The notes beneath the pieces were generated by a model, which was not told the DNA's origin, did not search any database, and saw only the letters and a program-made list of their open reading frames with translations. DNA of 64,000 nucleotides from Asterochloris sp. CNOR1 (lineage: Eukaryota > Chlorophyta > Trebouxiophyceae > Trebouxiales > Trebouxiaceae), in NCBI GenBank assembly GCA_963969365.1, contig OZ017753.1, positions 1,488,001-1,552,000 of the forward strand, written 5' to 3'. Positions within the stretch are counted from its first letter, which is position 1. The number at the start of each line of letters is the position of its first letter. The position numbers and the translations under genes are program-made. This document shows, one piece after another, positions 3,101 through 63,767 of the stretch.

Positions 3101-6100
3101 TGCCAAGGAGGTCAAGGTCACTGCTGAACATTGTTGATGGTTGGGCACACTCAAGCATTTGTTTTCAACCCGCAAGCACAGCTGGGCAGGTCAGCTTCAG
3201 GCTTGCCTGGGGCAGATTGTCAGCCAATGACGCAAATTTCTGGCTGTCTGGAAGGTGAAGGCGTGCAGCACCAGCAGGGGCAGCGCAAAGTCGTACACCT
3301 GCACAAATACACTCGATTTGATGCCAGCTCACAGCTGTCACAGTGTAGCAAACTGACCAGGTGATGTGCTGGTGGGTGCAGGTGCAAACTTGGCACGAGG
3401 TTGCAGACATGGGAGTAGCAAGCTCTGCAGCTCCAGCTTGCAGCGCGCACCTCAGGCCGTGTTTGGCAACCCAGCCAGCAAGGTGCACACACCGGGCTGC
3501 AGAGGTAGTTTGCTGCCTGTTCATTGCCATGAACAAGCTGTTGGAAACCACAACAATATGCACACTCTGCTCACCCAGTACCCCCGCTCTGCCAGCCGGA
3601 TGTTGGTCTCATACTCCTCATGCACTTCACACAAAATCCTGCAGCACAGCTGAACTCCATGAGTCACATAATTGCATGTTGCAGAAGCAGCTTTGCAGGA
3701 GCAACAAGAGCAGCCATGCAGCTGGAGCCGTGCTGGCTACGACGTGCCGTGTTGGGGGCAAGCAGTGCTCCACACATGCAAAGTAGCCATGCACTGTTTA
3801 TTCAGGAGGTGTCAATGCTGGGCAGGGCCCATTGCTGGGCAGCAAGGGGCGGCAAGCAGCCTGCTTCGCAGCAAGCAGGGCCAGCGCTGGTCGCGGCAGT
3901 CAGCCTCGTCCAGACATGAGTTACTCTGTGTTGTGGTCCTTGGAGTCTTCGCAGATCTTTGCAAGCAACTCCCAGGTCTCAGGCTCCTCGAAGAAGCACC
4001 TGTAGGACACACAACAGGTCTCACGGCAATGCTAGAGAGGCAGCCAGAAGGGGCCAGACCTGATGAGCATGCACACTACAGCCCGGATGCCTGCGCGCTG
4101 AGCCATGCTGAGCCTGAGCCATCACCCCCATGTGCTACCCCAAGCAGTCCATCAAAGGCACCCACATGCACAAGGGATGAGTCCACATCGTCAGGGCCAC
4201 CGTGCTGAAAGTACAGGTCAGTCGATGACAAGTGGTGCCCAATGCATCCCTGCCATGACATATATGCCCCTGCACACAAACAGCAACCCTCCTGAGACCA
4301 CCTGCAGACTGATGAGGTGCTGCCCACCTCGTACCAGCAGCCTTGGTGGCACAGCCACAGGCATCCAGCCTTACAATTCTTGGCCCCACAGCAGCTGCAA
4401 GAACATTGTGCACTGCCCACCTTTGGTAAGCCTTCTTGGTGGCACAGCTAAAGGCATGGAGCCTGCCCAGCTCGAGTTCAAGCTGGCCATCTGTAACAGG
4501 CAGGATTCCGTATTCTTGGCACACACCTGGTGTCAGCCTTCTTGGTGGCGTAGCCAAAAGCATCCAGCCTGACCAGCTTGGCCCCATGCGTTCCCAGAGC
4601 CTTGAGCGACTCCTTCACAAACTCCTGCCCACTGGCGCTGAAGGGGTCAATGTCAATCTGTTGCTCCCCAAAGGTACACCACAGGCGGTGCACGGAGCCA
4701 TCATTGCACTTGACCTCAATGACTGGGGCCTCAGGCTTGCGGGTGCGAATCATGGCCAGCTGGTCTGGGGATGGGTCACCTGTGCATGGCACCGAGCAGG
4801 CGTCAGCGACAGGCAAAAGGCTCAAAATGTCAGCCCTGGCTGCGGGCTGGTCGCTTGCAGACAGAGGACGCTTTCCTAAATGCGCTCAAGCCAACAATCA
4901 TGTCTGCGCATTAGGGACCAGGGCCGCCATAGGCCTTGAAACAGGCCCACACATGCTGGACATGCAAGGTGCAGATTCAGCGTCAGCAGCTCTACGCCTC
5001 GAAGGGCAGAGGCATGGCACTCACATTTCCCCCAGATGCGCTCCCAGCTGACAAACAGGTCTGCAAACTTAGACTTGGCCCCATGCTCCTTGAAGTCCTT
5101 GAACTCAGCTGAGCCTGGAGAGATGTGGTTGACCATAAATTCCAGCATCAGATCATACTTCTGCAGCAGGGGAACGACATGGTACAGCAGCAGCAACAGC
5201 AGGTGGTGAGGCCCCACTGATATGCACCCAAATTGAGCTCCGAGGGGTGCAGTCCACAGCCTGCTGCTTGATCGCCTCGCCATGACTCCGCCAGCATGGC
5301 TCCGCCAGCAACCTCCAGCCTGCTGCAGATGAGACCTTGGGGACACAGAACATGGCTTGCAAGTCCCCAAGACATTGCACGCCTGGGCACACCAGTGTAT
5401 CATCCCTTCCACATCAAGCAGTGCTTTTGCCCACCCTATGCTCTGCAGTGCTCCTGGTGGATGCAGCTGCCCCCAACCACCTCTGCCAGGCTCTCAGCAC
5501 CCTCCCAGCTGCGAGCACTACACACTTGATGTGCTGCAGTCATCTCTGCGCACCTCTGCAAGCCTCTCGACATCTTTCCAGGTGCCCATGTCGGGATCGA
5601 TCTCCTTGTAGGTGGTGGGTGCAAAGCCGCCATCACCAGTTGAGGGGTACACTGGCAGCAGGTGCAAGCCTGAGATAGCTCCTGCACAACAGTCACTGCA
5701 TGAGCAGAAAGATATGGCGGGCAGCTGACGATGCAGCATGATCTGGAGCTACTGAATTTGCGAGTACCAAAAACATGGCCTTTGCAGGATTGCAGCCCAC
5801 TCCCTGCCTTCCCACACGCAGTATGCAGCAGAGCAACACATAGCACCTACCCTCCAAGTTTTTGTCCATGAAGGCCTCCAAGTCCTTCAGGTTGTTACCG
5901 ATGTGATGCCCATACGCAGACAGCTGTACCTGCATGTCCATTTGGCACCAGCTCGAACTGCAGTACATTGCCAAAGCGACCTTGCAGCCTCTTAACGCAT
6001 AGCCCCAGCCCTCTCGTGTGAGAGCAAATAAAGTCTCCCACCTGGTTCTTGAGGCCTCCAGAGTGTCCATCCAAGCGCTGCCTGGGAAAGGGATTCTCTG

Positions 6101-6282
6101 CTTTGCGCTGCACACATGGTGGGCAATGTGCGCTGTGATGTACTCTAGCCTCCTGAGATGCATGCATGTAGAAGTTTGCTCACCTTCATTTCACGAGACA
6201 TGCGCCCTATTTCGGTGAATGGCCTCTGGTCACTGCTGCTGCCATTGGCAGAAGCACCGTTGGAGCTGTCAGCAGCAGCCAT
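148..6282 (-). CDS. Sucrose phosphorylase (GH13 subfamily 18), multi-exon
   Basis: Phosphorolyses sucrose to glucose-1-phosphate and fructose; a related sugar-glycoside phosphorylase of the same subfamily is possible. Exons read: 6184-6282, 6042-6107, 5851-5929, 5554-5681, 5025-5160, 4527-4779, 3925-3999, 3575-3638, 3207-3298, 2929-2995, 2666-2730, one unplaced short exon, 1972-2078, 1523-1599, 1038-1146, 148-357; a further small exon may lie between 1038 and 357. About 550 aa. Family signatures are clear: LLPVYPSTGDGGFAP near the N-terminus, then MVNHISPGSAEF. All three catalytic residues are present: nucleophile Asp in VRLDAFGYATKK, acid/base Glu in LCEVHEEY, and the second Asp of VLDTHDGLG. 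No signal peptide is evident, so a cytosolic enzyme is likely. Two introns appear to use GC donors (after 3207 and 1523). The family is mainly bacterial, so ancient transfer followed by intron gain is an inference. Start: first ATG of a short Ser/Asn-rich leader. Confidence 0.88.
4325..4595 (-). repeat. Exon-edge echo array in the sucrose phosphorylase gene
   Basis: The 3' edge of the exon ending at 4527 encodes VRLDAFGYATKKADTR and is followed by a GT donor. Two decayed copies lie downstream in the same intron. The copy at about 4420-4480 reads RLHAFSCATKKAYQRW; the copy at about 4325-4392 reads VRLDACGCATKAAGTRW. Each keeps an AGGTGGG donor-like sequence. The true exon is the right-hand copy, because only it joins in phase to the CFFEEPETWELL exon at 3925-3999. 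Confidence 0.85.
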
Positions 6283-6887
6283 GGGGCAGCTGTGCCCTCC
6301 TCTGAAAGCCCTGCACCACAGCATGCATGCAGTCTGATCTGGAAGGCAGAAACCACTCTTCGTTATACTGCAGCTATGAGATCAAGGCACTTACCGTAAC
6401 GCTGTGTTTTCACGAAACCGGAATGCTGCAGCTGGCCTAGGTCTGCCCAAAGGCGAGTGCATGCGCAAGCAGGAGTGTTGCACACTGCAGCCGACCTTGA
6501 TCGGTCACAGCTGCAATCAGCAAGTTTTGCTTGCTAGGTTACGTCTCCTGTTGTTTTCTCGGAAAAACAAAAAGAGAATTCTTTGTGCCTCTTCTCAATA
6601 GTCACACAATGGGGAGGTACCGCACATTGAATGCCTGCCCTGCTTGCAGCTGTCAATTTGGGAACATTCCGGCATTGGAAGGACATGCAATGGGACAGGA
6701 GGTGAAATGCCTCTTCCTTTGGTGGCTCATAATTGCACTTCAGCTGACACAAGCGGGGGAGGGCCAGAACCAAGTTTCGAAAACAGACTAGACACCGCCT
6801 TCTCCATGGAGGCAGCGGCGGGGGAGGTGCATGTTATGAGCGCTGTGCAAAGATCGGCAACCTCCAGCAGCGCATCAGTGATCAGGA
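6283..6887. other. Intergenic, about 600 bp
   Basis: Lies between the sucrose phosphorylase start codon and the stop codon of the next minus-strand gene. It should hold the promoter and 5' leader of the phosphorylase and the 3' end of its neighbour. I see no convincing exon, RNA gene or repeat in it. Confidence 0.5.
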
Positions 6888-8782: not shown

Positions 8783-8998
8783 TGCCCACTTGCACTCCTG
8801 TGGGAACCGGCCGTTCTGATCTGCCGTCAGTTATCGTGCTCGACATTGCCGACACAATCAGGAGCTTCACGGCAAGACCTCAGTGTCATCAATTTGGCAG
8901 CATAACGATTTCGGTTCCCAAAAGGTCAAGTTCATGATGCACACACGGTGGGATGTAACGGCCAACTCCACGAGGTATCAGCCCAATATTCGCCTGTA

Positions 8999-10505: not shown

Positions 10506-10974
10506 GGCCAAACTATAACGGATCCGCGTAGGTCAATTGAAATATAAATCCAACAGACATTGAAATTGCTAAACGACTAGCAGTGGAGCAAGGAAGTGAG
10601 GCAACCGCGATGTGTCAGGAAGGGTGTGACTGTGCTCACCAGTTTATGCGCCATGACTTTCATGCGGCGTTTGCAATCGCTTTCTGAGGGAGAGCCAGCT
10701 GAAGCCTCTAAAGTTGACATTTTGAATGTCCAATGACTGGGGTTGGAAATTCAATGGACTGACAACTTAAATGGCGCCAGCTGAGAGACCCCAACCAAGT
10801 CTGCAGCTGAGCCAGGCCCGCATGGAGCCTGCCTCACACCTCTGCACACCTGATGCTGCCCCCAGTGCACACCCCAATGCTGCGCCACATATAATTTTGC
10901 CTGTCCACTGCTGCTCAGCTCAATTCAGCTAGTGTCAATGTCAAGTCAGCAGCAGCAAGTGTCAATTCAGCAGT
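10506..10974. other. Intergenic, about 470 bp
   Basis: Lies between the TL17-like start and the syntaxin stop codon. It is more AT-rich than its flanks and should hold the TL17-like promoter and the syntaxin 3' UTR. A short irregular repeat of the type GTCAATTCAGC/GTCAAGTCAGC lies at about 10920-10975. No gene seen. Confidence 0.5.
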
Positions 10975-12424: not shown

Positions 12425-12479
12425 ATGGCATCATCTGCTTGTCATGGGCAAGGCTTGGAGGCCTGTGCACACGCTAATC

Positions 12480-19200: not shown

Positions 19201-22200
19201 AAGGCGGGGCTCCCTTGTCAGAGGCTCAGCGCCTGTTGCTGGGGAGGGGGCTGGCAAGCGCAGGCAGCACTGCATCTGTAACGCGCAGCGGCTCTGGGGA
19301 GAAGCCGGTTCTTCCCGCTGGGGGCAAGTCGCGACAGGCTGGCAGCGACGGCAGCAGGCCTGCAGCGGCTCTGCCAACCACTGAGGGGGAAGGCCTGTCA
19401 GCTGAGAGGCCCATGTCAGGCCCTGTGCCGGGGCAGGCGGGCCAAAAACACATGGCAGAGGCTGCAGCAGGCCCCTCGGGCCAGCAGGGAGGCTCCCAAC
19501 CAGGCACCAGCCAGGCTGGCAGTGCAGGTGGCGCCCCCGTGCCACCCCCTGCCACCACGTCTGGCAGGAGCCTTCTGTCTGCGGCTCTGGCACCCAAAGC
19601 CAGCAGTATCACCACCAGCCCTGGGCAGCAGCAGGGCTGGCCGGACCTCCTTGCAGCTGCCCACAGCTCAGCCCCTCTGGCCACTGCTGCTGGCACTGGC
19701 TCTGGCAAGAAGGCAAAGCCTGGGTTGCGGCGAGGGGGGCTGTCCATGTTCCTGTCAGGTGTGCTCCTGTCATCTTGACGAGTCACAGCCCTCTGACAAT
19801 CAGCAGAGGTCATTGGCCGAGACAATGGCGTGCACAGGACACTTCCTGCCTTTTGTTTGTGTGGCAAGGCACTTTGCTGCCTGAATCTGAAGCAGCACCT
19901 TCTCCGTCATTTAACGCCATGTACGCACCTGTGAGTGCACCTCAAGCTGAGCCTGTGTGCTGGGCTACTGCACCGCTCCACAGCTGCTCAGCATGTGGTC
20001 TTGCACCTGTGCAGGGGAGATGGAGCAGCCTGCACGGGAGCCCTCGCCCCAGCCCGCGCCTCAGCCAGCCCAGGAGTTCCGCTGGGCGGCTGCCTCGGAG
20101 AACTCTGGCACCTTGGTGAAGACCTCCCTGCGCGACATCCAGCAGCAGGAGGCCTCTGCTGCAGCAGCAGCTGCTGCCTCTGACAAGGGCGCCAGTCGCA
20201 CAGGTGAGCGTTGCAAAGAGCAGCACCAGGCGCTGATGCATGTAATGTCACTGCTCGGTGCGGAGCATGCTGTGTGCTCGGGCTGTGTCTGGCCAGCAAC
20301 ACTGTCACCTGTGCAGTGTAGCGTGCCAATTACATTGCGTGCTGCAGTGGTGCTCAACACTCATCAGCCTGCACATGTGCCATTTGAGCTTTTGAGCACG
20401 AGGCCGCCCCCCAGGCTGACCAGCACGTGCTGCCTGCAGGCTTCCGTGGGGTTGCAGCCCCCAGCAGCGGTGGTAAGCCTCCCACTCCTGCACGCGAGGG
20501 ACGGGCTCCGCAGGCAGCGGAGGCGCGCATGTCTCTGGGACGCTTCATGGGCAGCGCTCCCAAATCCGCACCCATTGCCATGGCTGGCAGCGCCTCAGCA
20601 GCGCCAGTCGAGCTCAAGGTGCACTGATGGACGCTGCTGGCACTGCAGCTCCCCGTCAAGCTAAGACCAAGCTGGCTCTACCCCCAGTGCTGGGCTGTAA
20701 TACACTTGCTGGATGACTGGCTGATGTACTGTGCTTGGGTCTCAGCAGCAGTCAGAGCTGTGCAGGGGCAGCTGCATCCTAAGCAGGCAGCCTGCAACCA
20801 TCCAATAAGACCAGCTTGGAGGGATCCTCACCTGCCGGCGCTGCACACAAACTGCTGAACATTCATCAGGGAAGGTAGGACACCCCAGGGCGGCAAGACA
20901 TGCAAGGGCACTCAAGTCCAGGCGACAGCATGACAAGACAGACTCAGCGCTGCCCAGAAGCTGCTGCATTGTGACGCGGCACCTAGAGCAGCACTATTCA
21001 AGGGATGGAAGGGCACTGTTGGGCCATATCCTCCCACTTGACACCCAGTGTCCGTCACGCTCAACCATTCTATCTGCAGGCGCCAGCATGGGGTGGTGGG
21101 GCTCAGGGCAGCAGTCCCTCCGCAGCTGAGGGCGCTGCCCAGCCGGCGCCGGTCCCTGCCAAGCTCAGCCTTCGTGACATCCAGATGGAGCAGGAGGCAG
21201 TGCGCGAGAGCTGCAGCCGCAGCTGGGGAGCGCTGGGGTCCTCCCCTGGCAGCGGCGGGAACGCAGGGAGCCACTTTGCACATTGGTGAGCGCTCTAGCT
21301 TAGTGCATATGGTTGCGGCCCGTCCCTGATGTGATGCAGGGGGCGACCTTGCTCACAAGTGAGTGCTGGTGTTAGAAATAAAGATGCTCAAGCCACGGGG
21401 CGCAGCGTGCCCCGTCCTCTGCGCATCAAGTGGGAACGTCAGCAGCAAGTCTCATGTGATGGACCCTCCTGGCGCAGGAACGTGCAGTCAGGGGGTGCTG
21501 TCCCTCCTGGCAGCTCCCCGGGGGCGCTGTTTCCATCCGGCAGCAGCCCAGGGGGCAGCAGGAAGGTGTGGACACCCAGCCCCCAGAGCAACAAATGGTA
21601 CATCAAGGTGGGCCTCAAAAGGTTGCAGTCACAGCTTGTTGGCTTCACCAGCTCATGATCTCCACCAGCAACAATCATTCTCTGTGCTGCTGGTGCTCAG
21701 CAGTGAGCCCGTCAGGGAAACTCAGCCCTGGCACTGTCAGCTTGCTGCCACGTAGGCTCTGGCTCCTTGCAGTCCTGTACAGCATCGCAACCAGCCACCT
21801 GCACAGCTCAATTCTCAAGCGGCTCCGAGTCTGGTACACCTCGTGCTTGCATCCTCAAGTTTGGTGCACACTGATTATGCATCCTCAAGTTTAGTCCACA
21901 TTCATCATGTGTGCAGGAAGAACGCCCGGTGGTGCCGTTGGAGGTGATCCAGTCGGAGGAGGCGCGCGAGCTGGAGGCTGCCCAGCAGGCTCTGCAAGAG
22001 CAGCAGCAGCAGGCCGCCGCAGCCCGGGCAGCCGCATCTGCTGAGCAGGAGGCTGAGCAGCAGCGGGACAAGCGCCGCAGGCAGCAGCATGCCAGGCGGC
22101 AGCGCAAAGCTGCTGCGGCGGCGGCAGCTGCTGCTGCTGCTGGGGGCCCAGACAGTGATGAGGCTGCCAAGGCTGGGGAGGCAGCCGATGCCCTGCGGGG

Positions 22201-23002
22201 CCAGCAGCTGCACAAGGCTGGTCCAGCCACAGCTGCTGGAGGCCCTGACAGCATTGAGGCTGCCAAGCCTGGGGAGGCAGTAAACGCCCCGCGGCGCCGG
22301 CAGCAGCGTAGGCCCAGTGGCGGCCTTGCTGACCAGAGCCAAGATGGCGCTGCACAGCCTGCAGAAGGTGGCAATTCTGGAAACTCAGATGCAGTGGGAT
22401 GTACCTCAGACGATGCAGGGGTGCAGGAACGGCGCTCAGCTGCTGCTGCAAAGGGACCCAACAGAGGCCATGGTAGGGCCCGCCCTAAGGATGTGGTTGC
22501 CCCTGGCGTGAGACACAGGCAGCGGCGTCTGTCAGGTGCTGGCACTCCTAGGGAACAGCAGGCTGCTTCTGCTGAGGAGCCTGCCATGGCTGTCAGGCCC
22601 AGGACCGCAGGCAGGGGCAGCTCCGGAGACCTGGCTGCTGCTGCACGCAGCAGTCAGCCAGCAGTGCTTACCAATGGTCAGCGCCGCCCTCCCTCTGCCA
22701 GGCCAAGGACTGTGGACAGGGGCATGCTTAGGCATGAGCAGGCTGCTGCTGCTCAGGCGAGTCAGTCGGTAACAACACGCGATGAGGAGGCCCCTGCCTG
22801 TGCCAGGCTTGCATCTGCGGGCAGGATCAAGGGGCAAGCAGCCCCCAACATTCTTACAGTGGCCAGGCCCAGGGCTGCTGGGCAGCCCAACAAGCCGGCA
22901 CTGGCGCCAGCTGCAGCCAGCACCTCTGCCGTGCCGGCCACAGCAGAAACCCAGGGCCCTGCACCTCGCCAGGGTGGCGTGCCAGGAGGGCAGCTAGGAT
23001 AG
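13296..23002 (+). CDS. Ankyrin/RCC1-repeat protein, IBtk-like
   Basis: Large scaffold related to plant homologues of inhibitor of Bruton tyrosine kinase. Ankyrin exons 13296-13378 and 13543-13636; RCC1-propeller exons 13884-14154, 14427-14641, 15001-15175, 15469-15586, 15783-16028, 16258-16585 and 16805-16988, with repeated blades such as VFSWGNGSNYQLG, LFSWGSNRDGRLGY and VFSWGANDQGQLGYG. Later exons include 17799-18003, 18264-18477 (helical region after a BTB position), 18684-18841, 19065-19758 (VRILRKKLQQIEHLEQR, typical of the plant family), 20019-20203, about 20443-20626, about 21081 onward (SLRDIQ motifs twice) and 21917-23002 (Ala/Gln-rich, Lys/Arg-rich tail). Roughly 1,500 aa. No BTB core was recognised. 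The start codon lies upstream of 13296 in an exon I could not fix. The intron after 18841 begins with GC. Likely a cullin-adaptor-type or regulatory scaffold (inference). Confidence 0.85.
17178..17265. repeat. Near-perfect intronic hairpin (38-bp stem, 12-nt loop)
   Basis: The arm at 17178-17215 and the arm at 17228-17265 are reverse complements over 38 nt with two mismatches, separated by a 12-nt C-rich loop. It lies inside an intron of the IBtk-like gene, between the exon ending at 16988 and the next one at about 17325-17340. No coding potential. It may be a precursor of a small RNA or a young inverted repeat. Confidence 0.9.
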
Positions 23003-26198: not shown

Positions 26199-26303
26199 CC
26201 GCTCCAGATCGCCAAACCAGTAAAATACTGCTTCCTCAGTTCGTGACCTAAAAAATGTCTAAAGCAATTAGAGACTAGTTGACCAGCCACCCTCCCGAAA
26301 CTG

Positions 26304-27406: not shown

Positions 27407-31296
<3,890 letters not shown>

Positions 31297-43800: not shown

Positions 43801-46651
43801 AACTGAGCAGTGCAACCAGATGCACTGGAAAGTTCTGTGCAACCCACCTGACGTAAAGGGCATCAACACAGCACAAGCTGACAGTGAGCCATGAGCCGCA
43901 CAACTGTCAAAGGCCCTCCCTTTGCAGTGATCAGCTGCAGACACCCTGTAGCCCACCTGACAGGGATGGGGACTTTCTTGCAGATGTACTCGCACACAGC
44001 GTCCACATTGTACTTGAGCTGGGCAGAAATGGGGACCACTGGGGCGCCCTCTGCAATAGTGCTCTGTATGAAGGTCTCGATGGCCTCGTGCTGGGCCTCA
44101 GCTGCGGCCTCAGAGATCAGATCTATTTTATTCTGCAGCCAAGTGGGTCCAGCAGGTCAGCAGCAGATGTGCAGGCAACCTCAACTGCCGCGTCAGCAAT
44201 GAGACCCATCTAAGTCTGCAGGCAGCTTGGCGAGCCAGATCACGAGCAGATGGTCTTATGCTGGGCCGCGCGATAGCCCCAAAGCAGGCGAGCAGTAGAT
44301 TGCAGGCGGGGGGGCTGGCCAGGGAAGAAGAGGAGGGAGGGCCGGCAGGTAAGCACTCCACAGGAACCAACAAATGTCTTGCCAGTGGCAACTTGCCCAA
44401 ACCAAGCAAGCAGCGCGCAATGTTGCTTGAATCAAGCATGTTTGCCCACAGCACACCACATCAACCAGGTTAGGGCAGACTTCTGTTGATTGGCCCTGCA
44501 AAGAGGTCCAGGTGTCTCAAGGCACCAGTGACACACCTGTGATGCCCCAAAAGCTCGATGGCTGTCAAGTGCTTGCTCATCTGGGGCTGCAGGCAGGACT
44601 CATTGGCCGCAATCAGCAGTAGGGTGCCACCCAAGCTTTGCTGCCATTTGCAGTGCACACTCACGAGAAGCTACCCAGCACACAGCCCACAGCGGCACAG
44701 AGCAGATGCTCACCTGGAGGATGATGATGTGCTTGAGCCGCATGATCTCCACAGCGGCCAAGTGCTCGCTGGTCTGGGGCTGGGGACACGATTCATTGGC
44801 CGCGATCAGCAGCAGGGCGCCGTCCATGACGGCTGCCCCGTTGAGCATGGTGGCCATGAGGATGTCATGGCCAGGGCAGTCCACAAAGGACACGTGGCGC
44901 TCCAGCTGCATGTCCACATTCTCGTACCCGGGCACCTGCAGTCGGCAAGCACAGCTGAGCTGAGCTTGGTACATTCTGTGGCAGCTTGCAGACATCACAA
45001 TTCTTGTACTCAGGCACCTGCAGCAGGGAGGCCCAGACGACATGAGTCAGCTGAGCAGGCACAACATTGTGGCGGGGCAGTGCACATAGCACTCCTGCTG
45101 CATGTCCACATTCTGGTCTGTAGGAATCTGCAGCAGGGAAGCACAAAGTGTCAGCTGAGATTGGGCTTGGTTTGCGCTGTGACAGGTTGTGATTGTTGTT
45201 TCTGTGGGCAGGCACATGCAGCAGGGAAGAGCAGAATCCCATGGGTCAGGTGAGCCTAGGGGTTCTTACTGTCATGGCCCAGGCAGTCCACTGCGATTTG
45301 GCACTCCAGGTGCATGTCCACGCTCTCATATCCAGGCACCCATGGCGAGGAGGACGATGTGCAGGAAAGTCAGCTGCACTTGTGTATATGAGGAGGCACA
45401 AGGGTGCGCTGCAGCTGCACCGCCACAGTCTCTGAAACCAGCTTTACTCAAGTGCTGCACTTGCCTCACTGCCTGAAATTTGATAGCAACACGTGCCTGG
45501 CTGCCAAACCTGTGCTGCAGCAAGCCCAGGGAGGGGCTGGCTCTGGAACAGCCCTGCAACTGCCCTGACAGGCTCCAGCCAACGGAGTGCAAAGGGACAG
45601 CAGCAGCGCCTTCCTGGATGCCCAGCTGCCTGTTGAGGCGCGCACGAGCAAGTGTGATGCAGTGCTGGCAATACAATGTCTTGCTTTCCGCTCATCAAGC
45701 ATCACTGCTGCTGAGGGCAAGCCCCCTGCCAGTGCCCTGCTAGGGTTCCTGGAAGCTGTTGTGCCCTTCAGCCCACCCCAGGCCGATGCTCTACCACAGG
45801 CCCGCCTGATGGCAAACTTAACCTCACATTCGGAAATGTCAGCTGCCATAGGCCTGGCAGCAGGCTGCTGGCCCTTTTGCGGGACGCTGTGCTCAGCCAA
45901 CAGTGGTTGCCAATGCTCAGCAGCGCAGGGTTCTTGCAGCAGCATGTGCAGAAGGCCGGCCTACCTCACACTTGGGTGTGTCCTCCTTGTTGCTGCCGTA
46001 AGCCCGATAGCAGGCTGGGCGGGGCACTTTGTCGCCCTTGGCCTTGTAGATTTTTGCGTTGGCATAGCCCAGCTTGATGGTAATGTTGCGCTCCAGCTCG
46101 TTCTTGAAGCGCACAGTCATGACACCAGAGATAGCTTTGACCACAGTCGACTTTCCATGAGCCACATGGCCAATGGTGCCTGCAGTCAGAGTCTGCCGTC
46201 AGGGTGCACTGCGGCGCACTAATGGTGGAAGGCAGGGCGCAATGCGGTGCAGCGCCCTGCTGTGGCAGCGTGGTACCATGTGGGCTGCAGAATGCAGGCA
46301 ACAAAATGCCTGCTTTGCAGCCAGGTGCCCTTCTGTACGCCGGAAAATCTATACTACATATCAAGACTGCACTGCAGGAGCAAGGACGGGAAGCACAGAG
46401 CAGGAAGCTGGAAGCAGCGTGCAGATGTCATATGCCATGCAGCTGCCACGAACCAATGTTGATCGTGGCTTGTCTGCTGATGACCTCGGGCGTGAGAGGC
46501 GTGAGTTGGCTGGGGTCTAGTGTGTCAAGGTTCTGCAGACATGGTAGCAGGCCTGTGAGCTAATTACATTGTGATGTCCAAGTCTGCTGCTTCTCAATCG
46601 ATGATGCATGCAGCTAACCTGTTCCCGCAGTCCTGCCCCTCTCTTGCTCAT
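40820..46651 (-). CDS. EIF2G: Translation initiation factor eIF2 subunit gamma
   Basis: GTPase core of eIF2, which brings Met-tRNAi to the 40S subunit. Ten exons, all phase-consistent: 46619-46651, 46454-46532, 45965-46179, 44714-44935, 43957-44132, 43347-43458, 42527-42697, 41768-41890, 41258-41353 and 40820-40978; 461 aa, the normal length. Motifs: [16 protein letters not shown]-loop GHVAHGKS (G1), the zinc-knuckle region [35 protein letters not shown] (G3), NKID (G4), [13 protein letters not shown] (domain 2), [13 protein letters not shown] and the C-terminal [16 protein letters not shown]. Everything needed for function appears intact. Three introns contain decayed copies of adjoining exon edges. 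Start: ATG of an 11-codon first exon that joins in phase to [15 protein letters not shown]. Confidence 0.96.
41355..41420 (-). repeat. Exon-edge echo upstream of eIF2-gamma exon 9
   Basis: The exon 41258-41353 encodes [13 protein letters not shown]. The intron right before it contains a decayed copy at about 41366-41415 reading [11 protein letters not shown], ending next to the real acceptor. Confidence 0.75.
42796..42850 (-). repeat. Exon-edge echo upstream of eIF2-gamma exon 7
   Basis: The exon 42527-42697 starts [15 protein letters not shown] after a CAG acceptor. About 140 bp upstream a copy starts after its own CAG and reads [15 protein letters not shown]. The copy stays open to the genuine exon, in a different frame from it. 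Confidence 0.85.
44530..44640 (-). repeat. Exon-edge echo downstream of eIF2-gamma exon 4
   Basis: The exon 44714-44935 ends [20 protein letters not shown] then [13 protein letters not shown]. The following intron holds a copy at about 44548-44640 reading [20 protein letters not shown] then IELLGHHRC, followed by a donor-like GGTGTG. Confidence 0.88.
44972..45347 (-). repeat. Three exon-edge echoes upstream of eIF2-gamma exon 4
   Basis: The exon begins [20 protein letters not shown]. Three decayed copies lie upstream in the same intron: about 44972-45021 (VPEYKNCDV), about 45066-45137 ([14 protein letters not shown]) and about 45270-45347 ([20 protein letters not shown]). The first two still follow a CTGCAG acceptor. 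They differ in age: the farthest copy is closest to the original in sequence. Confidence 0.88.
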
Positions 46652-52639: not shown

Positions 52640-55600
52640 ATGGCTGCTGAGCATGCAGGTGCACCTCCTAGCACTGCTGACCAGGCCGGCACAAGGGCTG
52701 ATAGTGCTGGAGCATTGCTGCGGCCCGCTGAGCCTCAGGCAACCTGCATCTTCTCAGCCTCCCCATCCAGCAGCCCTCTTGACGAGCTGCTACAGGTGGG
52801 GGTCCAAGTCACAATCCCCAGAAATTTCAGTTGAGCAGGCCCTTTACAGCGCAGCTGGAAGCAGTGCAAGATGCGTCAGTGACTGGCTGGCACTCAATTA
52901 CCAGCTAGCTGCCTGCTGTGAATCTGGTCTCAGGCGTGTCTGGGGTGCAGGCCATCAGAGACACACGCCAGAGCTCTGGACATGCCCACATTCTGGAGAC
53001 AGAGGGCCCCAGCCTGGCCTGGGCAGATGACTCCAATGCAGTCAGCACATCGCGGGAGGACAGCGCCATGTCTGACGTGTCGTTTGGAGGGCTTGGCATG
53101 CCAGGTGCAGCTGCTGCGCGCAGCTCGCCAGCTGGCTCCAGGCCTGAGGGAGGCAAGGGCGCATCTGGGAGGCTGTCACGGCATGCTGACAGGGTGGTAT
53201 CCCCTGCTGCCAGGGTCTTGGGGGGTGCCGGGCCTGCCAGCAGGAGCCCAGCAGCAGGCAGTCTAGCAAACAGAGCTGCATCTGGCAGCGTAGCAGAGCC
53301 TGTGAAGGCAAGCTTGGCCACGCCCACAGCAGGCACCAGCTCTGAGAGTGGGGGCAGGGCTGCTGGCTGGGCATCTTCCAGCAGCAGCATGGCACCCAGA
53401 AGTGCTGGCCGGACCTCACCAAGGCCTGACAGCGTGGGGCAGACGGCACCTGCCGGGGGATCGCCAGACAGAGATATTGCCTCCAGAAGTGCAGGCAGGA
53501 CCTCGTCCAGGCTTGAGATTGCGGGCCAGATGGCACCTGCAGGGGCCCCCCCTGCCAACCCGCCAGGCGCAGCAGGGCTGCCAGAGGTGGCTGCCGCCAG
53601 GGCCTTGCCTGACAAGCTGCCTGCTGCTCCTGCACCCCTGCCCGCCCCAGCAGACCCTGAGCTGCCCTGGCAGAAGCCCAGCAACCCTACCCCAGCTGAC
53701 CCTGTGCTGCCCTGGCAGAGAGCCAGCAGCCTTTCGCCGGGGCTCTCGGCGGCAGGAACCCCCACCTCACAGCTGACCCCACCTGTAGAGAGCATAGGCA
53801 CGTCTGAGGCCCCTGTGGTCAGTGAAGGCGTCAGCCTGAGCGCTGAGTCCTCTCAGGAGGACCTGCCGTCAGGTTACATTCCCAGGGGCGGGCCAGGGGA
53901 GTCCTACATGCAGAAGAAACTGCGTGACATGCAGGTGGGCACTGTTGATCAAATCTGCATGCGCTGATGCATGCACTGGAACAAATTCTCAGAAGCCAAG
54001 CGTCAAAAATGACTCCTGTGCTCAACTGAACCACCATGCTGGAATTCAGGGTCAGTAGCTGCTTCGTACGATCGTGAAGCGGGCTTCTGTTGTAGCCAGC
54101 AGGAGGATGCACAAACCCTATGAAGAGGCAGTCTGTCCCATGGCAGGCGCTGGCGCATGCTGCAAACGTGTTCTCTCCATGAGTGTGGCAGAGAGCAGAG
54201 CACCCTCCCGGCGTTATGGGTCTGATGTGACTGTATGCAGGGCGGCAGGGACAGCTTGAGGTCCATGAAGGTGCACAAGAGCAAGCTAGAGCAGGCCAAG
54301 GAGGACGCCGCCATCCTCAGGTGAGATGTTGGGCAGCACACACACAGCAACAAAGTCCTGTGCCAGCTGCATGGTGTTGACACCTGTCAGGATGCCTTGC
54401 CAGCTGCATGCGAATGTATGTCTCAAAGCAGCAAATGGCTCCTTGCACAGGTACCTTCTGTCAGCAGTTCCACTGCTTGCCCTGCCAGCTGCACCAGAAA
54501 GTCAGGAACCCCAGCCAACGCTCTGCACCTGCCCGCCTGGGAAGGTGGGCAGCCTGATGACAGAAGTACTTGCCACTGCAGGGAGGGAGAGCTGTCGGAG
54601 GCAGACCAGGCAGCTGTGCGGCGGCTGGTGCAGCGGGCTGTTGCCCACGCCGTGGCCACACAGGGTCAGGGGCTCAGTGAGGTGAGGGGCTCAGCTTACT
54701 CCTGGTAGAGTCACAATCAGGGGCCTGCTGCCACCCCTGGAGTGAGCATCCACAAAACAGGTTGTGCAGATAGCATTGTGATGCTTGGCCCAGGTTGTCA
54801 ATTCAGTGCCAGGGCTTTCAAAGGGGAGTCATGGGCCAACAGGAGACCCTTGAAGGCCGCTCCTCAGAGCACGCCTGCAAGCTGAGCAGGAGAGTTGACA
54901 GGCTGACAAACAAGGCAATGGAGCATGCTGCAGCTTACTGGCACTGCTGTTGTGCTGCAGACCCTGGTGAAGCACGTCAGCAGGCTGGAGCGGGAGAAGG
55001 AGAATGCAGCAGCTCAGCGCAAAGATGAGCAGGAGGCTGCAGAGGCCAGGAGCAGGGCACGGAAGGTGGTACACACCCCGCAGACCGGGGTGAGCTGCCA
55101 GCTTGTTAGGAAGGCAAACAGTTGGCAAGAGGATGTAGTTGCGCAATGCCATCATTGCACAGGCATCCACAGCCTTTCATGTCCCCTGCATGCCGTGCAA
55201 CACTGCTGTTGAACCCCTGGACGCAAGCATCTGCAAGCGTGCTGTGCCCCATGACCCTCTCTGCAGACCTTCTCAGTCTCTGCAAGCTTGGGCCCTGCAG
55301 GTACATGGCACTGAGCGGGACTGAAAAGGCCCCTGCTCGAGCGCAAGGGCCACAGGCACTTGTTTCTTTTGTGTAGGGCCTGGCTGCTGGCCACAGCAAA
55401 GTGTCACGTCACAAAGCTGCAATGCCTCATATCTTTGTTCGCAGGGCCTGGCCAGCCTGCCCAAGCATAAGAGCCGTCTGGAGCAGGAGAAGGATGCTGC
55501 AAAAGCAGCGCAGATGACAGCAGGCCCCTCCAAGCCATTGCCCAGCTACATGCGCCCCACTTCGGCCTCACAGGCCATGAAGAAGGTGCACACTGCCTCA

Positions 55601-57177
55601 GATGCGGTGGAATGCTGTGCATCTGCAAGCAGATGGATCTTCTGGCCATGTCTGGCGGCCGCTCTGAGCAACGAGCGAGCACATGTCAAAGCAAACGTTA
55701 CCCCTGGCAGGGAGCAAAGCAGGACCTGGGCAGCTTGCTCGAGCGTAGAGCCACCTGCTGCCCTCTGCAATGCACGCAGCTCCACACCATTGTCCCCTGT
55801 GCCTGTTGGATGCGTGGCAGACCTGGACAGGCTGGCCAAGCTATTCTCCGCCTGTTGAAGATTCAACTTCAGATCTTGATCCTCTTTTCGTGCGATGGAG
55901 TTGCAACAGACCTGGGCAGGCTGCACTAGAATGATGTTGCCTGCCTCTCCTGCTCCATGCTTTCCTGATGTGGTCCACCTACTGTTACTGCAGGGAGCAG
56001 AGGTTGACCTGGGCAGCCTGCCCAAGCACAAGAGCCGCCTGGAACGTGAGAAGGAGGCTGCAATTGTCAGCGCCAGCTCGCGAGTGCGCCCTGTAGCAGC
56101 GCGCAGCCGACCAGGCACAGCTGGGCAGGCGACTGGCGGCCTTGGCGACGGCCTGGTGAAGCATAAATCTCGGTGAGGGGCTGCCATCAGCCCAGACTCG
56201 CTGGCAGCACAGCTGCTGCAGCAAGTCCAGTGCACGCTTGCCAAGCCTCTACAGTCTGTGGGCGCAGACGTGGCAAGCGTGTGTACAGTGGGTGCTCTGT
56301 ATCCCCTTCTCCCTTGCCGAGTGATTGGCCTGACCTTCGAACGCCCGTCTTGCAGATTGGAGCGGGACAAGGAGAATGCTGCAGCAGCTGCTGCCTCTAG
56401 CCTTGTTGGAGAGCGTTCAGTGCGGCAGGCCAGGTGACCTCAACGTGAACAGTCTGTGTGGGCTGTCTGCACAGCTTTCCTGGGGACTGATCTTGGCCGC
56501 ACAGGAGGCAGCTTCAGCTTCTCATTGCAGGAGTTGATCATTGCCCTGGCCTTCCCATCCTCACATGTCAGGGCAGGAGCATCTGCGCTAAGAGAGAGCT
56601 CTGTGGCTGGTGTGCAGGGCAGTGACGTCTGGGCAGAGCAGTGCTGGGGGGTCGCTGGCAGATGTGAAGCTTCACAAGAGCAAGTTGCAGCAAGAGAAGG
56701 AGGCCTGGGCCGAGGCGGTGAGCTGTTTGCGCTGCTTGGGGATCAGGGTCAGGCAGGCACTGCCATGCCTCATCCTCACATTGATCTTGCGTTGGGATCT
56801 GGCACAAGCCGCAGCTGCCTCTCAAATCTGCACGCGTCTGCCCAGATGAATAGAGACCACGCAGACTTGGGCAGCAGTCTTCTGCTCCACTGCAGGCCTC
56901 CAAAACATCCAAGGTGCGGACCACGAGCAGCTTCCGGGAGCCTCTAAAAAGGGAGCCCAGCAACGTGGGCAAGGAAGAGAGCGGCAGCCGTCCAAGCAGC
57001 AGCAGGTGTCCCCCCGCCAGCACAACTAAATCGGGACAGGCAGCAGCGGGCAGTCTGAGTGCGAGATCAACGGGGAGGTCCTCTGGTGGCAAAGTACCAG
57101 GCTATATGAAGAGTACGCAGCTCACTAATGCCAGGAACTCATTGCAGCCAAAGGAATTTGACGCAAGGTTTGCCTGA
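52640..57177 (+). CDS. HKSRLE-repeat protein, unrecognised family
   Basis: Begins near ATG 52640 (MAAEHAGAPPSTADQAGTR; an earlier in-frame ATG at 52571 is possible). A large exon to 53934 is Ser/Pro/Ala-rich and ends SYMQKKLRDMQ. Then mostly one short basic helical motif per exon: MKVHKSKLEQAKEDAA (54239-54321), LVKHVSRLEREKENAA (about 54961), LPKHKSRLEQEKDAA (about 55446), LPKHKSRLEREKEAA (55994) with LVKHKSRLERDKENAA split by an intron (56180/56356), and LHKSKLQQEKEAWA (about 56660). Short P-x-YM motifs recur (LPSYMRPT, VPGYMKST). The last exon (about 56897-57177) is basic and ends KEFDARFA. About 750 aa. The repeated charged helix resembles microtubule- or filament-binding repeats in general layout; that role is only a guess. 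Confidence 0.65.
55711..55925 (+). repeat. Three exon-edge echoes in the HKSRLE-repeat gene
   Basis: The exon starting at 55994 begins GAEVDLGSLPKHKSR after CTGCAG. In the preceding intron there are three decayed copies, at about 55711 (GAKQDLGSLLER), about 55811 (VADLDRLAKL) and about 55894 (GVATDLGRLH), spaced roughly 85-105 bp apart. Confidence 0.8.
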
Positions 57178-57309
57178 TGGAAGCGCCAAAGATACACAGC
57201 ACGGCGGTCATCATACTGCAGTGTAGTTTACAAGGAATGTCTGATGTTGAGCTTTGAGCAGATGTGTGGGCTCACGTTTTGTTTCACGCAACAGGGTTCA
57301 ACTTCGTGA

Positions 57310-60300
57310 TCATGCAGTCAACTCAAGCAGGCCTGCTTGCAGCAGCGTCTGCACCACTTTCTTGCCTTTCTTGTCACAAAAGTCTGGGCCAAGCTCTAAG
57401 AGCTGGACACCAGCGAAGTCTATGTAACTGTCAGACTCCAGCATAGGGTACAACAGCACCTCCAGCAGGGGAGCTGCCTCGATGTGAAAGACCAGCTTGC
57501 CAGGAAAGTCGGCATTGCCCTGAGCATCACAGGGGTACTCTGCATGCTGGTCACGCTGGTTGTTTAGACAGTGATATACCACAGCTGAATCCTCCTCCAG
57601 CGTCAGCATTGCAACACCTGCAGAGCAGGCAACCTCTCTGCTGCCAAATTGTCCGTGCTGGAGCACAGCTGGCTCTGCTTTCTGGCAAGGCTGCATCTCT
57701 GCTCTATGGTATACAACTTCAACCACTCTTCTGCAGCGGTCATGTTTGGTGAGGCAGGCTCACCAGGCCTCAAGATCCTGACATTGGCTGTCCGCCAGGA
57801 CTTGAGAAATGTCCGGACCTGCGCCTTCACCCTCTCCGCATTGGGCTGGCATCCAGGAGGCGGCAGCCTGTGCTGCATGAAACCAACCTCCATCCTGCAT
57901 CAATGGAAGTGACTGGTCAGGGTGCACCACAGATGTATGCAGAGGGCGGGTACGAGGCTTCTGGTGCAAGCTTGCAGTTCGAACAAGCTTTACCTGTCCA
58001 CTGCAGCATCCACAGGCAGCTCGTGCAGCACCTTGGAGGCCGCTGAGGCTGCTGTCGCCAGCATGTGCTGCCTGGCTGGGCTGGCCTCCTCCAGATCTGG
58101 TGCCTCTGCCCTGCAGCATGGAGCTTAGGGAAAGGTCTGACACTGTCTCTGCCTATCAGCAACATGGCAGGCAAGTCAAGCTTGGCAGCAGCCGCACGTG
58201 CCAAAATCATACCTTGTGCGCCCTGGGAGAGAGGGGAAACGGGGGTAGTGGCTGCTGTACCCTCACAAGCACATGGGCAAGGCCATCAGGTGGCACAGCC
58301 TGCACACTGCTGCAGGCTTGATGGCATGAACCTCGGCCGCTCACTTAGCCACTCCCAGGTGAGCGAGCATGTCGTGGGGCAGGTTGCGCCGCAGGCTGAG
58401 GTGCCTCTCTGCGGCCAGGTCCAGCGCCTGCGGCAGCGCCACGTGCAGCAGGTCTGCCCAGGAGTGGTGCTGGCTCGCTGAGATGGTCACGTGCAGGGAG
58501 TGGGACCCCTCCACAGCCTCAGCCTGCATTCAAAAGATGCAAGGGCCCATGCAAAGGCACATCTTGGGTCAGCCTTCATGCCCAGAGGAAGCGTGTCTTA
58601 GCAGGATGCCAGCTCCAAGCGGATGGGAGCATGATGCGCACCAGCCCACATGCCCTTCAAGGGATGCCACAGGCAGACTTTGGGCAGTGCACCATTCCAG
58701 GGCACATCGATGGACGCATTGGCCATGCGTCCTGAGAGACAGGCTTCAGGGATCAGCAAGCGCATTCACCAGCAGTGAGTGCAGGGAGGTCACCGGCAGG
58801 CGCACCATGGCACATTTGCTTGTACCAAGGCCCTGCGCCACCTGGCTGCTGCCCTCCCTGAACAGTACCACACACACATATGGTTGGCCCCACCGACCTG
58901 GTGGATGCAGCCCCGTGGCATGTACAGCAGGTCACCGCGCCGCAGCACAGTGTCCAGGAAAGGTTCCCCCAGGTCGATAGGGGTCAAGTCAGGGCTGCTT
59001 GTCTGAGGCAGCAGGTCGTCGGGGGAGGCTGGTGCGTACAGGCGCCAGCGTTTGCACCCCTCGGTCTGCAGGATGAGAGCATCTATGTCGTCCCTGCAGC
59101 AGGCAGGGCACCGTTGATGCAGAAATTCCTGGGGCTGCAGGGCATCACTGCAGTGGGAACAAGGGACAGCAGGTGGGGCAGTTTCGCTGCACTGCTGCAG
59201 AGTGACTCATGATGTATGTGTACTTGCTTGTTCAGCATCTTGAAGCCTCCTGTCGCGATCTCTGTGGCATCACTCATGAGGCAAGCTTCTGACCAGCGTG
59301 GGATTGCAAAGTTTCCAGATGTGCAGACAGCAGCCACCCACATTGCCGGCTGCCCTCAGCACCACAACGTACCAGTGAGGAGCAAAGCCCTGGCTGCCTG
59401 CAGGGGTCAGGTAGGCATTGCTGCCCACGTTGCAGCCAAGCTCCTCCTCCAATGCCGCCAGCAGGCGCCACAGGGGGTCATGCCACCTGCTTTGCACAAA
59501 ATGAGCTATAGCACTTGATTTGGCACCGTGATGCAGAAGAGTGCCACCTGCTCAGCATAGAGATCAGCTGACAGCGAGAGGGGGTGGCACCTACTGAGGA
59601 TGGTCAATATGTCAAAGCAACCGGCACATGAGCCCAGTCTCCAGGCCAAGCATTGCAGCATGGTCGTCCAATGGCTTGTAATGCTGCACGCACCACTGGG
59701 GGTGCAGCAGGGGCACCCAGCACCCCTCCTTCACAGCACCACTTGCTGGCAAGAGACAGGTCATGCTGCACGCACCATCGGGGTGCAGCAGGCGCACACA
59801 GCACCCCTCCTGCACAGCACCACTTGCTGGCAAGGGATAGGTCATGCTGCACGCACCGCTGGGGGTGCAGCAGGCGCACAGAGCAGCCCTCCTCCCGGAA
59901 GCGCTTCAGCACCAGGACAGGGTCAGCCACCTCTGGATCCTCCACCGCAGGTGCTGGCTCCTCGCCTGCAGCAGGGCGGTACTACACACCACAATGTGAC
60001 CTGAGGCAGCTGCGCATAAAGCGGCACACACGCCTAGCTGTGCCTTTGCAGCAGGGCAGTGGAGAGAGATCTGTTGAGGGGCGGCAGCAGAAAGCTGCAC
60101 AGAAGGTTGGCGCAGAGCTCTGACTTGGCTATTTGCTTGCCAGCATAGCACTGCAGCACGTCTGAGGGCATTGAACTTGGCCTGGCACAAACCAGGCAGA
60201 TGAGTATCAGCACTTGGATGTGGCTCCCCGAGCGGCAATCAGTCATGTGTTAGTTTGCAGGTGCTGGCTTGCAGGTGCTGGTTGCTGCTCCTCAGGTCTA

Positions 60301-61729: not shown

Positions 61730-61901
61730 GTGTGATCTATGGCCATCTGCTGGGTCAGATGGGATTCCAGGACCTAGCCCACCCCATGTCATCATTGATG
61801 ACCAAGTCTGACATCTGAACACGGCAGCAATTGCCTCATGAACGTTCTCCAGCTTCACAGCAGTCCTGCAAGTGCACATCTGAGATCCAACCCGTCAGTA
61901 A

Positions 61902-63767
61902 ATGCTTGCAGTCACACCCAGCTTTACCCACCATGGCGAGAGAGGTGTCGCATTTGCAGAGTGGGTCCCTGCCTCGTGCATGGAGAGAGAAGGGCCCATG
62001 CACGTACCTGTTCACCTCTTCACGCCATTGGGTTTGAGCTCGGAGGCCCAGCTGACACAAAAGGTACAGCCTGAGACCTTCTGTTCATCAGGCAGCCAGT
62101 GCTGCCTGTCAAAGCATCAGCCGCACTCCTGCAGCTGTTGTCAGGCTGGCAGATTGTGCAGCCTCTGCACAACATTGTCAAACATGCTGGTTGTCTCTGC
62201 ATGACCCTCTGCAGGCACAGAGAAACATGCAGGAGACCTGACGCGCTCTGCAGCCTCAGTGCTGCTCTACCAGCAAGTTCTCAAAGGTGCTCGCTGCTCT
62301 TGCTTTCACTGCCTTTGTGTAGTCACCAGCGAACTGTTGTGGCTGCTGCTGCAGACAAGCCTGGGCAGCTATTCCTGAAGCTACTCCTATTACTCCAGAG
62401 AGGAGGTCGCACCACAGTGAGGCCTCACACCTTGCCGTGGCAGTTGTGCTTGCGTGCCTGCATCCGTGCTTGCCCACATCACAGGCGCAGCCCGCCAGCA
62501 ACTCACTTTCTGCGCTGCCTGCAGGACACTTTGGAAACATATGCAGAGTTATGGCAGCAGCTGCAGAATGGGGGCAGCGCCTCATGGCAGGACTACCTGC
62601 TGGAGCAGGTGCGGAGCAGCATGACCACCATCTGGTAGCTGTGTACAGCAGTGCAGGCTGCTGCGTGCTGGCTATGCTAGGCGCTTGAGCGGTAGTTGCC
62701 CAATGCTTTTGCTGCTCAGGTGCAACACGTGCCTGTGTGCTTTGCTGGCAGCTGGCTGGCATGCGTGGAGCTGGAGCAGCACCACCTCGTTGCTGTACCT
62801 GTGTAGGGGGCTGTGCCATGGGACAATCCCTCAATGCATATGCTGCTGGTGCCCACCCCACCATACTGCTTATGGTGGGCCTGCCTAGTGCCTACATCCA
62901 GGTGGTGTCGACCAGTTCTCCTCATGGGCAGGGATTGCCATCATTTCATCGGAGCAGTGCACCACCTGCACACTGGTGTGAGTGCAAATGGGAAGCCCTA
63001 AGCATGACGTTGCTGTCCACCTCTGCTGCTGCTGCCCTGTAGGTCCTCCGCGGGGCCAACCCCTTTGCCAAGGCAGCCTCCCGCGGCACCCTTCTGCCAC
63101 CGGGCAGCCCCATGCACAAGGCTGCCGCATATGACCTCGACGTGCTGCAGAAGCTGGCAGTGCCAGAGCCCACGCTGGTGTCCTGGATCGGGGATGTATG
63201 CGCTGACCTCCCCACGGAGTGGGCTGAGACTGGTGAGCCTGGCCCAACCTTTACTCTCTCTGCAAAGGGCTGTGCTGGAGCTATGGTCCTGTTGCTTCGT
63301 CTGGCATGAGCTGAGGCCACAGGCTTGTGCATCTGGGCTGACCAGAAGCTTGGGGGTGCAACACAGCCTGTGCCGTAATGCAGGCTGCTGCACATGCTGG
63401 CATCCGGTGGACGAGGCCAGTCCCTGCCGTCTACCGTGCAGAGCAGTGGCCCTCCCCCTTGCAAGGCCTAGCAACATGCTGACCTGGGGCACCTTGCTTG
63501 GGCTGCAGTGCAGTGCATCTAAGCAAGGTGAGTGATGTGCTGACCTGGACCCCTTGTCTGGTCTGCAGCGCAGTGCATGGGCCCCTCCCTGATGCCGCCC
63601 GCGGACGTCCTTGCCCAGCGGGACCCCCGCGCCACAGAGGCGCCAGATTTCTCTGCACAGCCGCCCCCTCCCCCAGAGTTCCTGCTTGCACCTCCCTCCC
63701 TGGAGCTGCAGCACCACTATCGCTGTCACATCGGGGGCCAGTGGAAGTGGTCCCAGGCCTTGCCCTG
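61902..63767 (+). CDS. DUF815-like gene, 5' part, runs off the window
   Basis: First exon 61902-62063 (MLAVTPSFTHHGERGVAFAE ... HVPVHLFTPLGLSSEAQ), then probably one near 62254-62295 (SVLLYQQVLK), 62525-62608 (DTLETYAELWQQLQNGGSAS), 63043-63232 (VLRGANPFAKAASRG ... AAYDLDVLQKLAVPEPT) and 63569-63767 (Pro-rich, then HHYRCHIGGQWKW). The sequence DYLLEQVLRGANPFAK ... AAYDLDVLQKLA resembles, from memory, the N-terminal region of plant DUF815 P-loop ATPases; the ATPase part itself would lie past the right edge. Whether exon 61902 belongs to the same gene is unproven, and the join at 62295 is out of phase as I read it. Partial at the 3' end. Confidence 0.5.
63478..63582 (+). repeat. Exon-edge echo in the DUF815-like gene
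   Basis: Intron end plus exon start at 63538-63582 (TGCTGACCTGG ... CTGCAG then CGCAGTGCAT) is repeated at 63478-63521 (TGCTGACCTGG ... CTGCAG then TGCAGTGCAT), 60 bp upstream. Both copies have a usable acceptor. Confidence 0.85.

Follow-up and report, generated by a model that had tools for sequence, protein, structure and literature searches.

The window, a stretch of 64 kb from the genome of the green alga Asterochloris sp. CNOR1, holds several genes in which copies of an exon edge recur in the adjoining intron, hereafter called echoes. A plastid rbcL, whose best PDB hit is 8q04 (Chlorella), and the overall character of the DNA point to a green alga, probably a trebouxiophyte. Exon positions were taken from a gene finder trained on this same sequence (an order-2 start followed by an order-3 gene finder, as order-4 self-training collapsed to 14 ORFs), and the exons are predicted exons throughout. 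In a sucrose-phosphorylase-like gene on the reverse strand, whose model has an alpha-amylase-fold match, the source at 4524-4586 comprises the end of exon 4527-4779 and the first intron bases, and this donor edge aligns with two echoes, at 4418-4472 (offset 106, and 93 to the other echo) and at 4325-4388 (offset 199). The OYE gene, also on the reverse strand and matching PF00724, has its source at the acceptor edge of exon 29295-29468 (29418-29468, with the alignment extending upstream into the intron to 29549), while two upstream echoes occupy 29515-29657 (offsets 97 and 193; 29418-29549 aligned to 29515-29645, plus 29615-29657). By our judgement, the predicted OYE exon 29519-29566 is probably one such echo miscalled as an exon. 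The RRP7 gene (reverse strand) shows a weak donor-side echo at 32408-32428 of 32464-32484, which matches at 20 of 21 bp and is missing from the list of pairs with a BLAST score of at least 40.

Three stretches of the eIF2-gamma gene, again on the reverse strand, carry echoes: an acceptor-edge echo of exon 42527-42697 at 42795-42840 (offset 139; pair 42656/42795), an echo of the inner part of exon 44714-44935 at 44566-44628 (offset 193; pair 44566/44759), and two acceptor-edge echoes of the latter exon within 45083-45340 (pairs 44891/45083 and 44863/45270), whose offsets of 192 and 407 look like a three-copy array of ~200 bp. On the forward strand, the HKSRLE gene has an acceptor-edge echo of exon 55994-56172 at 55707-55757 (offset 283; pair 55707/55990), and its match at +561, earlier taken for an echo, has both arms in coding exons and represents a protein repeat. 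An 81-bp array of 2.6 copies with 90% matches (59678-59893, reverse strand; 59678/59760/59841) spans the donor edge of NO66-like exon 59857-59965. The last gene, on the forward strand, holds an acceptor-edge echo of exon 63569-63767 at 63477-63518 (offset 61; pair 63477/63538); its previous naming as DUF815-like was not borne out, as its gene model matched no Pfam family at E ≤ 0.001. Two further forward-strand cases serve for comparison, namely an in-frame duplication within one exon at 22136-22307 (offset 96, i.e., 32 codons) and an intronic tandem pair at 53342-53545 (offset 84) reaching the next acceptor.

Ungapped self-comparison of the window (matches scoring at least 15 at offsets of 20-600) gave 42 direct matches, compared to one match when 581 offsets were drawn at random from 3-20 kb, and three inverted matches within 700 bp. 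All seven genes named in the preliminary description have a local direct copy, with a BLAST score of at least 40 in six of them and RRP7 as the weak case. As CTGCAG, CAGCAG and neighbouring words abound in the window, the echoes could be suspected of being chance matches of CAG/CTGCAG-rich sequence; however, counts are near zero at far offsets, in swapped introns, against an intron's own reverse complement and for inverted matches, making this explanation extremely improbable. Chance is refuted for matches over the thresholds, while echoes under ~20 bp could be chance. The control that the preliminary description had proposed, scoring exon edges against own and foreign introns, was clearly positive: among 492 introns of at least 150 bp, 14 held a copy of their donor edge and 11 of their acceptor edge, whereas swapped introns gave 0 and 1 of 2,456, respectively.

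To place the window in context, pairs scoring at least 40 in BLAST with a partner within 1 kb were catalogued in 344 kb from 15 places in the 56-Mb genome. Here, 99 direct pairs (73 non-redundant) were found against two inverted ones, and the copies are local, in the same orientation and at several stages of decay, as had been claimed. The spacing of direct pairs ranges from 57 to 587 bp and is below 300 bp in 88 of the 99, with none at 600-1000 bp at this score in the 344 kb. A similar picture emerges from short words in non-exon DNA, where direct 8-mers number 117-124 per million pairs at distances under 100 bp but 47-48 at more than 1 kb, whereas reverse-complement 8-mers stay flat at 46-56 over the same distances. 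Besides the exon-edge pairs, there are intron-only, intergenic and exonic ones. The pattern earlier described across the window is real but not specific to it, being typical of the 15-place sample. The view that no mobile element lies behind the echoes held for all four window regions tested, each of which occurs once in the genome in a search that passes over very common words; for these four regions, the same sequence at many genome places, as expected of an introner or mobile element, was not found.

Echoes lengthen introns, as had been suggested. The median length is 369 bp for introns with a repeat arm and 205 bp for those without, dropping to 203 bp after subtraction of the offset, so that an intron with an echo exceeds the others by roughly one unit; despite the matching medians, offset-subtracted introns still differ from the others (p 0.04). 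In exons, the reading frame acts as a filter, as tandem arrays with a period of at least 4 have 3n periods in 25 of 29 cases inside exons, 16 of 71 outside and 9 of 15 mixed. Likewise, all five exon/exon pairs have 3n offsets, although two belong to one array and one (the window's +561 match) joins two exons. Identities, codon-position divergence and splice-site retention were read from BLAST's own alignments. Divergence between echo and exon, pooled over pairs, is.175/.151/.219 by codon position and therefore reveals no coding constraint on the echo, which on average decays neutrally. In the echoes, the splice dinucleotide survives at 24 of 34 sites for donors and likewise for acceptors (48 of 68 together), compared to 65% of neighbouring dinucleotides; the predicted echo splice sites thus decay at about the neighbouring rate, and their retention gives no sign of use. 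Alternatively used duplicated exons were also considered, but pooled over pairs the echoes keep neither coding constraint nor splice sites beyond the neighbouring level, a result from which single cases may differ.

The preliminary description related the echoes to intron gain, in which tandem duplication of an AGGT-containing exon segment creates an intron, with the GT of the first copy serving as donor and the AG of the second as acceptor. This mechanism is established (PMC3443670), and one 99-bp intron (L022:5831-5930) repeats the upstream exon end at its own end, matching in 25 of 38 non-core columns, the top value of all introns. Such a birth requires the donor copy to align with the acceptor and the intron to equal one period, yet only this 1 of 758 introns reaches that level (~0 expected by swapping), and donor-acceptor alignment occurs in 1 of 99 pairs, judged a gene-model error. 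Intron birth is thus a highly improbable account of the echoes and is refuted as a general explanation. Tandem genomic duplication as described in PMC3443670, of which a potato case is reported (PMC4974935), and the alga's echoes both involve duplicated exon pieces with splice-site sequence, but in the alga existing introns lengthen.

The echoes are instead quite likely small local tandem duplications, probably made during repair of staggered breaks and kept neutrally in introns. Small tandem duplications of local DNA would arise without regard to gene structure, and those within exons would survive mainly when the frame is kept. A duplication across a donor or acceptor would be harmless if splicing keeps the outer site, as we presume it continued to do, leaving the extra edge intronic as an echo. 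Each such event would add one unit to intron length, after which the echo would decay neutrally, and pairs of which a constrained exon holds one arm would stay recognisable longest. Exon edges would for this reason be the main place where old duplications are noticed. Introns that tolerate such duplications would gain length in a simple way, while exons would filter them by frame; a mobile element was seen at none of the four tested places.

The matched length covers at least 80% of the spacing in only 20 of 73 pairs, and the rest fit simulated decay; adjacency at birth of most pairs is therefore inferred from a simulation. This simulation was position-blind, with exons constrained and echoes neutral, and its exon constraint and indel values were chosen by us. 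Median coverage of the unit is.52 as observed, and.67 and.40 as simulated at t.16 and t.20 (t in substitutions per site per copy). A second possibility is break repair by synthesis-dependent strand annealing, in which nearby DNA is copied into the break and a non-adjacent copy results; Pace et al. 2009 describe repair-mediated duplications of this type. In half of the 73 pairs, the match extends over less than 52% of the spacing, which is what separate insertions would give, and the size range resembles that reported by Pace et al. (up to 619 bp; PMC2671141). However, the tandem simulation reproduces the low coverage at t 0.18-0.20, so that a median of 0.52 fits separate insertion and decayed tandem copy alike, and the two inverted pairs against 99 direct ones speak against template capture, which can yield opposite orientation, as in the ACSBG2 example given there. 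Copying of this kind is accordingly unlikely. In the 51 of 73 pairs that allowed a test, residual similarity in the flanks is small (p 0.39, or 0.014 with 5 bp skipped), a test that does not discriminate, as simulated tandem pairs behave alike. As to microhomology at the junction, of which end joining would leave little, 15 clean young short-unit arrays have an excess over the unit of -1 to 8 bp (1-4 in 13 of 15), whereas pairs spaced at 57-587 bp have decayed too far for such a reading. Fill-in of staggered breaks followed by end joining, or else slippage, may be proposed as the origin of the tandem copies.

The preference for exon edges raises the question of aim. Junction-containing pairs make up 43 of 73 against 31.8 expected by rotation (1.35-fold; 1 of 1000 rotations as high), or 39 of 63 against 26.4 without the window (0 of 1000), and copies of exon edges are 2-2.6 times as frequent as those of intron segments chosen at random (14 and 11 of 492 introns against a mean of 5.4). 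Such an excess could come from a process that targets the edges of exons or their splice sites, through break hot spots or an RNA-linked step for instance, and it would also account for the ratio of observed to arm-matched placement of arms holding a junction, which is 1.34 compared to 0.64-0.91 in simulation. Because the simulated statistic reads both arms in pre-duplication coordinates, the share of pairs touching an exon is relied upon here, although the gap between the two ratios is not fully settled. Simulated junction fractions of ~0.50-0.53 up to t 0.20, or 0.34-0.51 in another run, are likewise not comparable with the observed 0.59, as the simulation yields longer arms or places them in pre-duplication coordinates. 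With age, the simulated share of exon-touching pairs rises (.48,.57,.67 and.80 at t.05,.12,.16 and.20), and the observed 52 of 69 (0.75) falls within 0.67-0.80, corresponding to 0.16-0.20 substitutions per site per copy. Survival of exon-anchored pairs thus predicts this share and can explain the modest junction excess. Moreover, the window alone shows no excess (4 of 10 non-redundant pairs against 5.5), and intron-only, intergenic and exonic pairs occur too. The earlier suggestion that the process is aimed at exon edges is therefore not supported, and an edge-directed origin of the copies is very unlikely, although some targeting may contribute. Survivorship can give a blind mutation process the look of splice-site aim.

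Duplications of the proposed kind are known elsewhere. Schimmel et al. 2021 (PMC8355091) describe small tandem duplications that form when staggered breaks are sealed by end joining. Among short insertions (<100 bp) of the human genome these are, according to the authors, the most common type, and they are also a signature that genomes of species and cancers display. Both these and the alga's pairs are direct, local and small, but the latter are old and decayed, in many cases exceed 100 bp and can be recognised mostly at the edges of exons. The duplications of Pace et al. (PMC2671141) are also local, extend up to several hundred bp and can include exons and splice sites; their set, as described, omits copies lying no more than 50 bp from their source and has at least one opposite-orientation copy, whereas the alga's are nearly all direct. 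Among the literature matches listed, no account on point related tandem duplication to intron length in green algae, and nothing on point concerned GC-AG introns in green algae. Short paired duplications, or doublets, of which Thomas et al. reportedly found a genomic excess at close range in 2004, are a further case; in the alga, the relation to exon edges and the age are studied.

The process was earlier suggested to be ongoing but does not look so, as none of the 99 pairs has an identity of at least 95%, while constant production predicts ~15%. It could tentatively be speculated, against the balance of our own expectation, that the alga once passed through an episode in which small tandem duplication was heavy and which has since nearly come to a halt, during which introns grew by whole units, mostly of 57-300 bp, and which left perhaps 7-30% of non-exon DNA still in duplicated register, an estimate assuming identities of 65-75%. 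Such a possible past burst is the unusual part of the finding, and the lack of young pairs poses a question that can be dated, namely whether a change in repair or replication ended the process. For primates, Pace et al. report that the activity of repair-mediated duplication falls with time (PMC2671141). The age of the alga's pairs is 0.07-0.18 from identities at a low indel rate and 0.16-0.20 from exon share and coverage at a higher one, the two ranges overlapping in part.

Local direct copies exceed chance in this genome. The window holds 42 direct matches scoring at least 15 at offsets of 20-600, against one across 581 far offsets and three inverted. In the first 20 of the 10-kb sample pieces, 19 have near-offset matches and one has none, with two far-offset matches overall. 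The full sample consists of the window plus 28 stretches of 10 kb from 14 contigs, joined as adjacent pairs (344 kb at 15 places, coordinates fixed rather than random). Across it, gapped BLAST at a score of at least 40 found 99 direct pairs of similar arms (offsets 15-700) versus two inverted ones within 1 kb. Likewise, direct 8-mer matches outside exons number 117-124 per million pairs at distances under 100 bp and drop to 47-48 past 1 kb, while their reverse-complement counterparts stay flat at 46-56.

The genome comprises 56.38 Mb in 21 contigs, with the window on C8 (1488001-1552000); C21 is taken as plastid because it bears rbcL and two Photo_RC genes, and the organism is probably a green alga. 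Exon and intron positions are predictions from a splice-aware hidden Markov gene finder that was self-trained on the same sequence and sometimes fuses adjacent genes. It predicted 776 introns (median 214 bp; exon median 114 bp) with the motifs CTGCAG/G at acceptors and CAG/GTGAG at donors (slash, splice site), and GC in place of GT at ~11% of predicted donors across the window and the 28 stretches. The predicted acceptor is unusually strict, with T at 92%, G at 96% and C at 98% at positions -5 to -3. Five of the 14 window models, and part cut out of a sixth, merged model, were compared with Pfam; five of these six matched families, several matches spanning introns (alpha-amylase fold; RRP7 and Oxidored_FMN; PNO1 KH domain and eIF2 gamma; RPB9/TFIIS ribbons; JmjC_2), and the window's last gene had no Pfam match. 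The sucrose-phosphorylase-like gene, with many predicted introns (window 204-6310, minus strand), matched only Alpha-amylase (PF00128, E 1e-6).

The preliminary description had reported echoes, i.e., decayed copies of exon edges within neighbouring introns, and proposed a control for chance. At score 40, a copy of the intron's own donor edge is present in 14, and of its own acceptor edge in 11, of the 492 introns that are at least 150 bp long, compared with 0 and 1 of 2,456 swapped introns, bearing out an excess beyond chance. Own reverse complements gave no donor or acceptor match at this score and one acceptor match at score 36. Four echo regions of the window, searched against the genome, each match themselves alone and are thus not mobile; the preliminary description likewise saw no mobile element that would explain the echoes.

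Such copies could arise when staggered breaks are filled in and end-joined, duplicating a few hundred bp or less of local DNA in direct orientation, or alternatively by slippage. Small tandem duplication by the former route is described by Schimmel et al. 2021 (PMC8355091), and the direct, local copies here, which reach a few hundred bp, fit it; that a break led to each duplication is something we infer. Copying by strand annealing, a duplication route set out by Pace et al. 2009 (PMC2671141), is less likely because inverted copies are nearly absent.

By class, the 99 pairs divide into intron/exon-edge (36), intron/intron (20), exon/intron (15), both partly exonic (15), intergenic (6), exon/exon (5) and mixed (2). 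A splice junction lies in 43 of the 73 non-redundant pairs versus 31.8 under rotation (1/1000 rotations as high), 31.1 under uniform placement (3/400) and 32.2 when exon-internal positions are left out (5/400); the junction excess is therefore modest. Leaving out the window gives 39/63 versus 26.4 (0/1000 as high), while the window by itself gives 4/10 versus 5.5 expected.

Tandem duplications were also simulated blindly on this sequence, excluding exon-internal units, at 700 duplications per age; constraint was imposed on the exon codon positions of whichever copy remained in use, and the remainder was neutral. Pairs were detected with the BLAST settings used for the real ones (thresholds, constraint and indel values were the analyst's choice). 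The exon-touching share of detected pairs climbs with age, being 0.48, 0.57, 0.67 and 0.80 at t (substitutions per site per copy) 0.05, 0.12, 0.16 and 0.20, and the real share is 52/69, or 0.75 (four exon/exon pairs of the 73 excluded). Simulated unit coverage is 0.67 and 0.40 at t 0.16 and 0.20, and the real 0.52 falls between. In this model, share and coverage point to one shared age without targeting. The count of junctions relative to placement, 0.64-0.91 simulated versus 1.34 real, leaves room for some exon-edge targeting, yet we do not think the two ratios comparable because simulated arms were read in pre-duplication coordinates.

Intron birth by tandem duplication, which the preliminary description had raised as gain through AGGT-containing exon pieces, does not account for the pattern in general. 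When donor windows were compared with acceptor windows of the same intron, core motif excluded, only 1/758 introns stood out, and mean similarities were 9.85 own versus 9.74 swapped. This sole candidate (L022:5831-5930, outside the window) is a predicted intron of 99 bp, with the upstream exon end recurring at its own end.

Nor is the duplication process clearly ongoing, as had been suggested. Pair identities peak at 80-85% and none of the 99 reaches 95%, whereas constant production predicts ~15% there (probability of 0/73, 7e-6). The best-fit age window, t 0.07-0.18, has a log-likelihood of -106.3 versus -124.6 under constant production since time zero at its best fit; it only partly overlaps the 0.16-0.20 that exon share and coverage indicate, and indel rates differed between the simulations. 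The assembly has not merely dropped tandem copies, because arrays with units below 40 bp include copies of 96-100% identity, while the 99 pairs, spaced at least 57 bp, have none at 95%. These two classes may have separate histories, although short units need high identity for detection. Since loss after birth, by reasoning, cannot leave young pairs scarcer than old, either production dropped or young long-unit copies are absent from the assembly.

Among tandem arrays of period at least 4, periods are multiples of three in 25/29 within exons, 16/71 outside and 9/15 mixed, as are all five exon/exon offsets (two from one array, one spanning two different exons). This bias in exons is the expected residue of a blind process and a frame filter. 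Examples within predicted exons are units of 96 bp (window 22136-22307) and 114 bp (L022:18900-19330). Pooled over pairs, echoes show no coding constraint, because they diverge from the exon by.175,.151 and.219 at codon positions 1, 2 and 3; splice dinucleotides are retained at 24/34 donors and 24/34 acceptors, and adjacent dinucleotides at 65%. A repeat arm is present in 71/761 introns, whose median is 369 bp versus 205 bp for the rest; subtracting the offset gives 203 bp, with the distribution still different (p 0.04). This length gain is supporting evidence only, because longer introns are easier to hit. At L022:6184-7004, a tandem duplication with an offset of 404 bp and 81% identity has a predicted acceptor and donor within each copy, possibly a duplicated exon in use.
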